Below are positions 1,028 to 3,327 of a DNA stretch of 35,043 nucleotides, piece by piece. The notes beneath the pieces were generated by a model that saw nothing but the letters and a program-made list of their open reading frames with translations, did not search any database and had not been told where the DNA came from. Source of the stretch: Desulfobacteraceae bacterium (GTDB lineage Bacteria > Desulfobacterota > Desulfobacteria > Desulfobacterales > SKZT01); contig SKZT01000150.1 in NCBI GenBank assembly GCA_007127235.1, forward strand, positions 1 to 35,043, given 5' to 3'. Positions within the stretch are counted from its first letter, which is position 1. Each line of letters opens with the position of its first letter. The position numbers were made by a program, and so were the translations under genes.

Positions 1028-1087
1028 AAATTTCATGATTTTCAGACAGGTGCATAATCTTTTTTATTAAAAAGAAAGGAAAATGAG

Positions 1088-1504
1088 ATGGCTATTACGA
1101 GAATGAAAACGTTGATAACTTTAACAGCTTTTGTTGTGGCGGTTTTGATTACCACAAACTACGCCGCACTGGCCAATGAAATCCCACGCATCTCCAAGGA
1201 AGAGGCCAGAGAGATGTTGGATAATCCAGACGTGGTTTTTCTGGATGTGAGGTCCGGCAGCGACTGGAGGGCAAGCCAGGTGAAAATCAGCGGTGCGGTT
1301 TACGAAGATTATAGAAATGTGGAAACATGGGCTCAAAAATATGATCCGGAAAAAACTTACATTCTGTATTGCGCCTGACCAGGCGAAGGTACCTCTGCCT
1401 GGACGGCAGCGCAAATGAAAGAGAAAGGTTTCGAAAATGTTTACGCTTTAAAAGGGGGATGGCACGAGTGGCATCGTTCCCGATTTCCTACCGAGTACAA
1501 ATAA
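1088..1504 (+). CDS. Exported rhodanese-like domain protein, probable selenoprotein with UGA(Sec) at 1376-1378
   Basis: ORF track gives 1088..1378 ending in TGA. Reading through TGA in the same frame gives U-PGEGTSAWTAAQMKEKGFENVYALKGGWHEWHRSRFPTEYK* with TAA at 1502-1504, which is the C-terminal half of a rhodanese domain. N-terminal signal peptide (MAITRMKTLITLTAFVVAVLITTNYAALANE) and rhodanese CH2-like segment PDVVFLDVRSGSDW. RBS-like aaaggaaaatgag before ATG. Confidence 0.8.
1376..1412 (+). promoter_or_regulatory. Candidate bacterial SECIS element immediately 3' of the in-frame UGA
   Basis: Hairpin CTGCC(1395-1399)-TGGAC loop-GGCAG(1405-1409), with its apical loop starting 21 nt after the UGA and a G in the second loop position. 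A competing perfect 6-bp stem CCAGGC(1379-1384)/GCCTGG(1397-1402) can extend with GCC(1373-1375)/GGC(1405-1407). Confidence 0.55.
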
Positions 1505-1607: not shown

Positions 1608-2621
1608 TCAGTCTGGTTCAACAACAATACGAAGGCCGTTGCTTTCGAGTTGTAAGTCGGAGGGATAACGCCCCCGAAACAAAGCACGAAGATGGTGTTT
1701 TTCAGAGTCCCAACCGCCTCCCCTGCGGACGCGAAACATCTGTTGACTTCTTCGAGAAGGTTGCTTTTCAAGACCTTGATTATAAGCGTCTTTTAGGTAA
1801 ATATCCTGACACCATTCCCAAACATTGCCGCTCATGTCATGGAGCCCAAAAGAATTTGCTTTTTTTTCTCCCACGGGATGTGTGGCATTCTGACTATTGG
1901 CTTGATACCAGCCAAGGTTTGATATTTCATTGCCTCCGGCATAAATTTCTTTCTTGCCACCACCTCTGGCGGCATACTCCCATTCAGCTTCGGTTGGCAG
2001 ACGTGCGATATATCCACCAGCGATATTTAATTTTGAAGCAAATTCTGTGGCTTTGTTCCAGCTCACATGCTCAACGGGATAATTATCCCCTTTTTTAAAG
2101 CGGGAGGGATTTTCTCCCATGATTTTTTCCCAAACTCCCTGGGTGATCTCGTATTTGCCCATCCAAAAACCATCGACACAAACTTCATGAGCGGGAATTT
2201 CATCAGCTTGGCATTCTTTAGCCCACTTGCCGCAACCCATCATAAAGCATCCTTCCGGAATCCAAACCAATTCAATGCCCGTCTCAGGATCTGTCCACTG
2301 CTTGCTTTTTCTCAATTCCACAAAAAGATCAAACATTTCTCCTGCTTCGATATAGATTCGCTTCTGATATTTTTCGTACCCGTATTTGTTGACTTGAATC
2401 AGATAGGCTCCGGGTTCTATGGCCATACCGGGATAATAATCGTGATCAATTTCCAATATTTCCACAATGGAATCCATTGGCTCAGGATAGACAAACAGCA
2501 AGCCGTTGGTCATTGCAAGTGCCTGATAATTACTTAGAGGCGAAAAAAAAACAAGAAACTTTATCAACAAAAAAGTTGTTATTATCCAGTGTTTTGAAAA
2601 AAAAAATAAGGATAGATTCAT
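1608..2621 (-). CDS. PEGA-like plus FGE/SUMF1-fold (formylglycine-generating enzyme-type) secreted protein, probably non-catalytic
   Basis: Signal-like N-terminus; PEGA-like segment (AIEPGAYLIQVNKYGYEKYQKRIYIEAGE); FGE hallmarks VWIPEGCFMMG, YEITQGVWEKIMGENPSRF, PVEHVSWNKATEFASKLN, RLPTEAEWEYAARGG, GLHDMSGNVWEWCQDIY, RVRRGGGWDS, SNGLRIV. Start overlaps the fliW stop (ATGA, 2618-2621). Confidence 0.85.
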   Translation of the reverse strand: MNLSLFFFSKHWIITTFLLIKFLVFFSPLSNYQALAMTNGLLFVYPEPMDSIVEILEIDHDYYPGMAIEPGAYLIQVNKYGYEKYQKRIYIEAGEMFDLFVELRKSKQWTDPETGIELVWIPEGCFMMGCGKWAKECQADEIPAHEVCVDGFWMGKYEITQGVWEKIMGENPSRFKKGDNYPVEHVSWNKATEFASKLNIAGGYIARLPTEAEWEYAARGGGKKEIYAGGNEISNLGWYQANSQNATHPVGEKKANSFGLHDMSGNVWEWCQDIYLKDAYNQGLEKQPSRRSQQMFRVRRGGGWDSEKHHLRALFRGRYPSDLQLESNGLRIVVEPD

Positions 2622-3046
2622 TTGGTTGTATTGGGCAAGGGAGTTTTATTTTGGTAACCACTGTTTTCCGAGACAATTTGCACCGCCCGATCTGTTTTGG
2701 GAGCGTAAATGACCGGGGCCAGAAGATTTAGGGTGACATTGTTATCCTGGTAGAAAGTGATAGTGGAAAGGATAAAATGGGGGTCTTTTATTCCGATCCC
2801 CAATTTTTCTCTTATATCCGTTCTTACATCGACACGGTAATCTGGAAAAAAAAGAGCTGGATTAATAAGCAGGAATGCCACATGGGGTTCTTCGACACTT
2901 TGGAAACAAAAGAGAACGTCATCATTTTTTGTCGGCATAACGATAAAATCTCTGAGCTGTTCAAAACCGATTAGTCCTTCCGGAAAGTGTACCACTTTTT
3001 TCGGGTCATAGCTAATTTCACCAAATCGGGTCTGAAGGGTTTTCAT
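2618..3046 (-). CDS. fliW: Flagellar assembly factor FliW
   Basis: [38 protein letters not shown]... is typical FliW. The track's start at 3133 runs into csrA; the internal ATG at 3046 gives an ATGA overlap with the csrA stop. Confidence 0.93.
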
Positions 3047-3285
3047 TTCGGGTTTTTTTTCCCGGGAAGAATCGAAGCGATGGCATCGAGCCTCTTTAAA
3101 TCCCACTGACTTGCCTCCTTGTTTTCCTGGCATATCCGGTCATAAATTTCTTGACGAAAAATTTTTTTTTCACGAGGAGCTTCAATACCGATACGAATTC
3201 TTCCCTCTTTGTTTTCCAAAATGGTGATCCTGATATTATCACCAATGACAATGCCCTCACCGCTTTTTCTTGTCAATACCAGCAT
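3043..3285 (-). CDS. csrA: Carbon storage regulator CsrA
   Basis: [51 protein letters not shown]. Start chosen at MLVL (ORF track extends to 3324); GGGAGGGCGGG Shine-Dalgarno directly upstream. Confidence 0.95.
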
Positions 3286-3327
3286 CCCGCCCTCCCTGGC
3301 GATTTTTTTTGAATTGATTGTCAACGA

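Follow-up and report, generated by a model that had tools for sequence, protein, structure and literature searches.

A CxU rhodanese with a UGA-encoded, predicted selenocysteine in a Desulfobacteraceae genome

Rhodanese domains (PF00581) that carry selenocysteine (Sec) include UxxS and UxxG forms (PMC13188914). The same 2026 review lists the NCBIfam family NF041203 rhodanese_LYCAU as 'Rhodanese-like domain-containing protein form 3, CxU', with one Sec (PMC13188914). Selenium is also found in the rhodanese domain of TsoB (NF045694), a rhodanese/DsbD fusion-like selenoprotein with a UxxxxU motif. The protein encoded at 1088-1504 of the window, the whole 35,043-nucleotide stretch analysed here, matches NF041203 with 165.4 bits against a cut-off of 115, over positions 3-126 of the 126 in the profile. 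It has the same C-x-U loop, and nothing distinguishes it from the family. Because the profile matches end to end and the review lists the CxU family, the protein is by these comparisons a new member of the catalogued LYCAU selenorhodaneses and no new kind. The preliminary description of this DNA had presented it as a probable unannotated selenoprotein, a novelty that is superseded by the NCBIfam entry and the review.

The resemblance to the other selenium-containing rhodaneses is looser. TsoB is only weakly matched (19.6 bits vs 805). The UxxS and UxxG proteins also have a rhodanese domain with Sec but, according to their listed motifs, elsewhere in the loop, whereas the Sec of the window protein would lie two residues past the catalytic Cys. 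The sulfide dehydrogenase 1qxn, which we take to be the polysulfide-sulfur transferase Sud of Wolinella, has the rhodanese fold and a catalytic Cys that aligns with Cys95 of the window protein (E 1.2e-6), but it contains no Sec and its active-site loop is two residues shorter. Sud is an exported protein, as the window protein appears to be.

The reading frame and its in-frame TGA

The frame opens with ATG at 1088 and is interrupted by a single TGA at codon 97, after which 41 sense codons follow up to TAA at 1502-1504 (Table 1). This arrangement is exactly as first described. The TGA sits within the rhodanese active-site loop, Y-C95-A-U97-P (LYCAUP, residues 93-98). The U had rightly been placed in this loop in the preliminary description; the canonical catalytic Cys position is, however, that of Cys95, two residues before Sec97. 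The full read-through product scores 58.2 bits with the Pfam Rhodanese profile (PF00581, cut-off 22.2) and the part preceding the TGA 27.1 bits. Since the match of this first part covers two thirds of the 102-position profile and stops at position 69, the TGA lies inside the rhodanese domain, and the remainder of the domain is encoded past it, as had been proposed. Compared with a same-genus relative, the post-TGA sequence differs by 5, 4 and 18 substitutions on codon positions 1, 2 and 3, respectively; judged by this pattern, the read-through half is therefore a coding sequence that evolves under protein constraint. No sign of decay was seen in 1088-1504.

Table 1. Positions of the features discussed in the text (window coordinates)
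Feature	Position	Strand	Evidence
APC-superfamily permease, 5′ end lost at contig start	26..1027	+	family profile match, 363 bits
Shine-Dalgarno-like AAGGA, 7 nt 5′ of ATG	1076..1080	+	sequence reading only
Predicted selenocysteine rhodanese, 138 aa, TGA read through to TAA	1088..1504	+	frame and NF041203 match
Probable signal peptide, residues 1-29 (..AALA/NE..)	1088..1174	+	by-eye reading
Cys95 codon, canonical catalytic rhodanese Cys position	1370..1372	+	aligned with the Cys of the 1qxn CKTAAR loop
TGA codon, predicted to be read as selenocysteine (Sec97)	1376..1378	+	TGA kept in homologs
SECIS hairpin: CUGCC 1395-1399, loop UGGAC 1400-1404, GGCAG 1405-1409	1395..1409	+	conservation and covariation in UGA homologs

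Residues 1-29 show, by eye, a basic start, a hydrophobic core and an AxA-type end, and the mature protein is probably periplasmic. An AF2 model (pLDDT 83, with block means no lower than 87 beyond residue 30) has a secondary structure that fits a rhodanese. It places a low-confidence helix at residues 7-30 and a strand at 90-94; Cys95, the first residue past the strand, and codon 97 lie in the loop that follows, and a further helix starts at residue 98.

Conservation of the UGA, its hairpin and the decoding machinery

About 60 loci in 292 genomes of the window's order match the selenorhodanese at E < 1e-17, nearly all of them with TGA at the same place. Together with six loci from a scan of named genomes, the 60 from the order search gave 66 aligned loci in which codon 97 could be read: 63 have TGA, and Cys (L042), Ser (L079) and Thr (L082) occur once each. 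A wider sample of the phylum beyond the order contained 41 loci with TGA, three with Cys, two with Ser and two with Ala. A TGA kept at one column in 104 homologs, 63 in the order and 41 beyond, is not there by chance. Named relatives that possess the gene include Desulforhabdus, Desulfacinum and other Syntrophobacteraceae; L020 belongs to the named isolate Desulfacinum infernum. The expectation that homologs would have Cys or Sec at this column thus holds for nearly all of them (Cys in L042, L129, L131 and L135) and fails for a few divergent members with Ser, Ala or Thr, most of which have also lost the RNA hairpin described below; because of these members Sec97 would not seem to be absolutely required. 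The Cys-bearing L042 still has the hairpin and has probably lost Sec recently. Two other loci may be mentioned in passing. L142 (G520:C29), perhaps a decaying copy, has Ser at the Sec site and TAA at the Tyr that precedes the catalytic Cys; the non-Sec homolog L079 (G112:C284), with a C-S-S loop, has an in-frame TAG in its leader region and may have a downstream start.

The preliminary description had advised a search for a SECIS element in the 3′ flank, and a conserved, covarying and UGA-linked hairpin is indeed present. It begins 16 nt past the TGA and pairs bases +19 to +23 with +29 to +33, counted from the first base of the TGA, which gives a stem of 5 bp and a loop of 5 nt. All five pairs are intact in 59 of the 63 TGA loci of the order and in 40 of 41 beyond it. 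Overall, the stem is complete in 99/104 UGA homologs as against 2/10 with Cys, Ser, Ala or Thr (p=1e-7), and when the partners are shifted by 1-3 nt only 0-1 of the 63 TGA loci remain paired. In the second stem pair a Ser codon and an Ala codon each contribute their third base; this pair occurs as T-A (45), C-G (13) or T-G (3), with p=8.5e-11, uncorrected for phylogeny. Since both bases change synonymously, protein constraint cannot explain this covariation. At the outer pair, 55 loci have G-C and three have C-G, one of which is the window. Loop sequences among the 63 TGA loci are GGUCU, AGUNU, CGGGU and similar. The spacing of 21 nt between UGA and loop and the G at loop position 2 agree with the published bSECIS model (PMC13188914). 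An Rfam search for the hairpin matched no family.

The folding energy of this hairpin is borderline, −7.3 to −8.0 kcal/mol. Folding of the window RNA with the UGA as its start favours another hairpin, CCAGGCG..UGCCUGG, and leaves the family hairpin a probability of 0.003; this rises to 0.83 once the first nine bases are omitted, bases which would be those covered by a ribosome stalled at the UGA. The CCAGGCG..UGCCUGG structure, the minimum-energy hairpin right after the UGA, was considered as SECIS and dropped because the homologs do not have it in common and share the +19 to +33 hairpin instead.

The host genome (333 contigs, 95% complete) was searched for the Sec machinery, as the preliminary description had advised. 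It contains tRNA-Sec with anticodon UCA, a selA match of 610 bits and selD (L094, G000:C26:1160-2086; 380 bits). The selD gene has an in-frame TGA of its own, and because of it the host SelD is probably itself a selenoprotein. For selB only a C-terminal piece is found, which begins with the very first base of its contig; it comprises two SelB winged-helix domains and shares 73% identity with the SelB of a same-genus genome, where the protein is complete. Given tRNA-Sec, selA, selD and this contig-edge piece of selB, the machinery is, as judged from these matches, present in the host, and only the front of selB is absent from the assembly. A second, distant SelB-C-terminal-like stretch (24% identity) lies elsewhere in the genome (L152, G000:C230:79-609). 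Co-occurrence has no power as a test within the order, where selA is found in 80/80 genomes with and without the selenorhodanese; across the phylum it is found in 66/69. One genome, G554, has a UGA rhodanese without a selA match yet has tRNA-Sec at 74.6 bits, and because of this tRNA a selA gene missing from the assembly is likelier than a true counter-example.

Decoding of the UGA and chemistry of the loop

In 25 of the 104 homologs, 14 in the order and 11 beyond, the codon for the catalytic Cys is also TGA (U-x-U; L059, L060, L061, L063, L069, L070, L075-L077, L080, L081, L083-L085, L110, L111, L113, L123, L125 and L136-L141). The two TGAs are six bases apart and share one hairpin, whose loop lies 27 bases from the first UGA, within the published range. 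Three such members compared with NF041203 each score >150 bits. They are scattered on the family tree, where parsimony, applied to a poorly resolved topology, counts nine transitions between C-x-U and U-x-U, and U-x-U has apparently arisen by several independent changes. U-x-U is absent from the motifs listed for NF041203 and the CxU family (PMC13188914), and we found no mention of U-x-U rhodaneses in a literature search that was incomplete, so that an earlier mention is possible. Repeated change from Cys to Sec at position 95 suggests that positions 95 and 97 are both chemically active, and members with two UGAs so near each other are a natural setting in which to test how one SECIS serves two codons.

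On the observed machinery, conservation and covariation, we infer that the UGA at codon 97 is almost certainly decoded as Sec. Taken by itself, a frame that ends at TGA would fit a true stop, either because a former Cys or Trp rhodanese was hit by a nonsense mutation or misread in sequencing, or because the functional protein has only 96 residues and the tail is dead. Such a product would be without a third of the rhodanese domain, however, and the TGA is found at the same column in 104 homologs, the tail evolves as protein and the hairpin tracks the UGA; a true stop is very improbable, and conservation, as far as comparison of sequences can do so, already refutes it. An in-frame TGA would by itself also fit a codon read as Trp or another standard residue. 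This is more improbable still, given the host's Sec-tRNA, selA and selD, the covarying SECIS-type hairpin and a column that alternates with Cys, not Trp; the refuting pattern named earlier, Trp or Arg in relatives together with decay in this copy, is likewise not what we see. All the refuting conditions of the preliminary description that lend themselves to computation were examined, and nearly all results favoured the Sec reading. One more in-frame UGA is thereby confirmed, comparatively, as a Sec codon, and the evidence reaches beyond protein similarity: the hairpin covaries at synonymous positions and is missing from most homologs that lack the UGA.

Our overall explanation, to which we give a probability close to 0.9, is that of an exported CxU selenoprotein with hairpin-directed Sec insertion, sulfur redox chemistry at Cys95/Sec97 and pairing with a permease. 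SelB and Sec-tRNA(Sec), the latter charged with the help of host SelA and SelD, would decode the UGA as directed by the hairpin. In the resulting rhodanese fold, whose loop exceeds the usual length by two residues, Cys95 would stand at the persulfide-forming position and Sec97 beside it would act as a second redox-active nucleophile. Cys95 could take up sulfane sulfur, with a persulfide, polysulfide or thiosulfate as donor; Sec97 would resolve the Cys95 persulfide with release of the sulfur and formation of a Cys95-Sec97 selenenylsulfide, and an outside reductant would then reset the pair. We are inclined, with some reserve, to accept this sulfane-sulfur chemistry. The most likely function would be that of a periplasmic sulfane-sulfur/thiol redox carrier using the Cys95/Sec97 pair, and the likeliest chemistry either sulfane-sulfur transfer by Cys95 with Sec97 resolving or a plain thiol/selenol exchange. 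A selenoprotein that is no sulfurtransferase at all, but a periplasmic disulfide/selenenylsulfide oxidoreductase or peroxide-type reductase working by CxU thiol exchange, is a possibility that we rate lower. CxU is similar to CxC redox motifs, the 25 U-x-U homologs are what one would expect if both positions were redox partners, and a 2022 review considers uncharacterized selenoproteins to be mostly probable redox proteins (PMC9312934). Against this stand the rhodanese fold, the position of the Cys and the presence of 1qxn, a sulfide dehydrogenase/polysulfide-sulfur transferase, among the closest solved relatives.

The upstream permease and other neighbours

The permease frame shares the strand of the selenorhodanese and ends 60 bases 5′ of it. 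Pfam gave no match with the window copy alone; its relatives match AA_permease_2 (E 1e-17) and, weakly, MJ0609, a solved transporter in the PDB, and the gene is therefore assigned to the APC superfamily. A permease just upstream on the same strand is found at 23 loci, one of them a partial match (window, L018-L022, L028-L033, L035, L036, L038, L040, L041, L043, L046, L049, L052, L056 and L062). This corresponds to 23 of the 27 testable loci in the window's clade, a group of 31 loci with support 83/88 on the family tree; of the remaining eight, four have upstream sequence too short to judge. Outside this clade no upstream permease was seen on the family tree.

The paired gene order in the clade is the reason to consider that the permease and the selenorhodanese act jointly, which we regard as an even chance, and the permease suggests that the substrate would be a sulfur compound or an amino acid. 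A link between a CxU rhodanese and a permease was not found in the literature either, in a search that was incomplete and may have passed over an earlier mention. The permease pairing and the U-x-U forms are thus what the locus adds beyond the known family, a modest novelty, and they give the uncharacterized CxU proteins two functional handles, the permease that accompanies them in one clade and a catalytic Cys that has repeatedly been replaced by Sec. Tentatively, the CxU loop might be seen as a two-position Cys/Sec switch, with U-x-U in separate lineages and one hairpin in range of both UGAs, to which a dedicated APC-type permease has been added in the window's clade to form a selenium-based pair for sulfur uptake.

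Downstream of the selenorhodanese, the minus strand of 1608-3324 encodes an FGE-sulfatase/PEGA protein, FliW and CsrA. Between the selenorhodanese and the convergent FGE-sulfatase gene lies a GC-rich inverted repeat (CTCCCCTCCCGCGTGGGAGGGGAG) at 1549-1576, with no clear T run.
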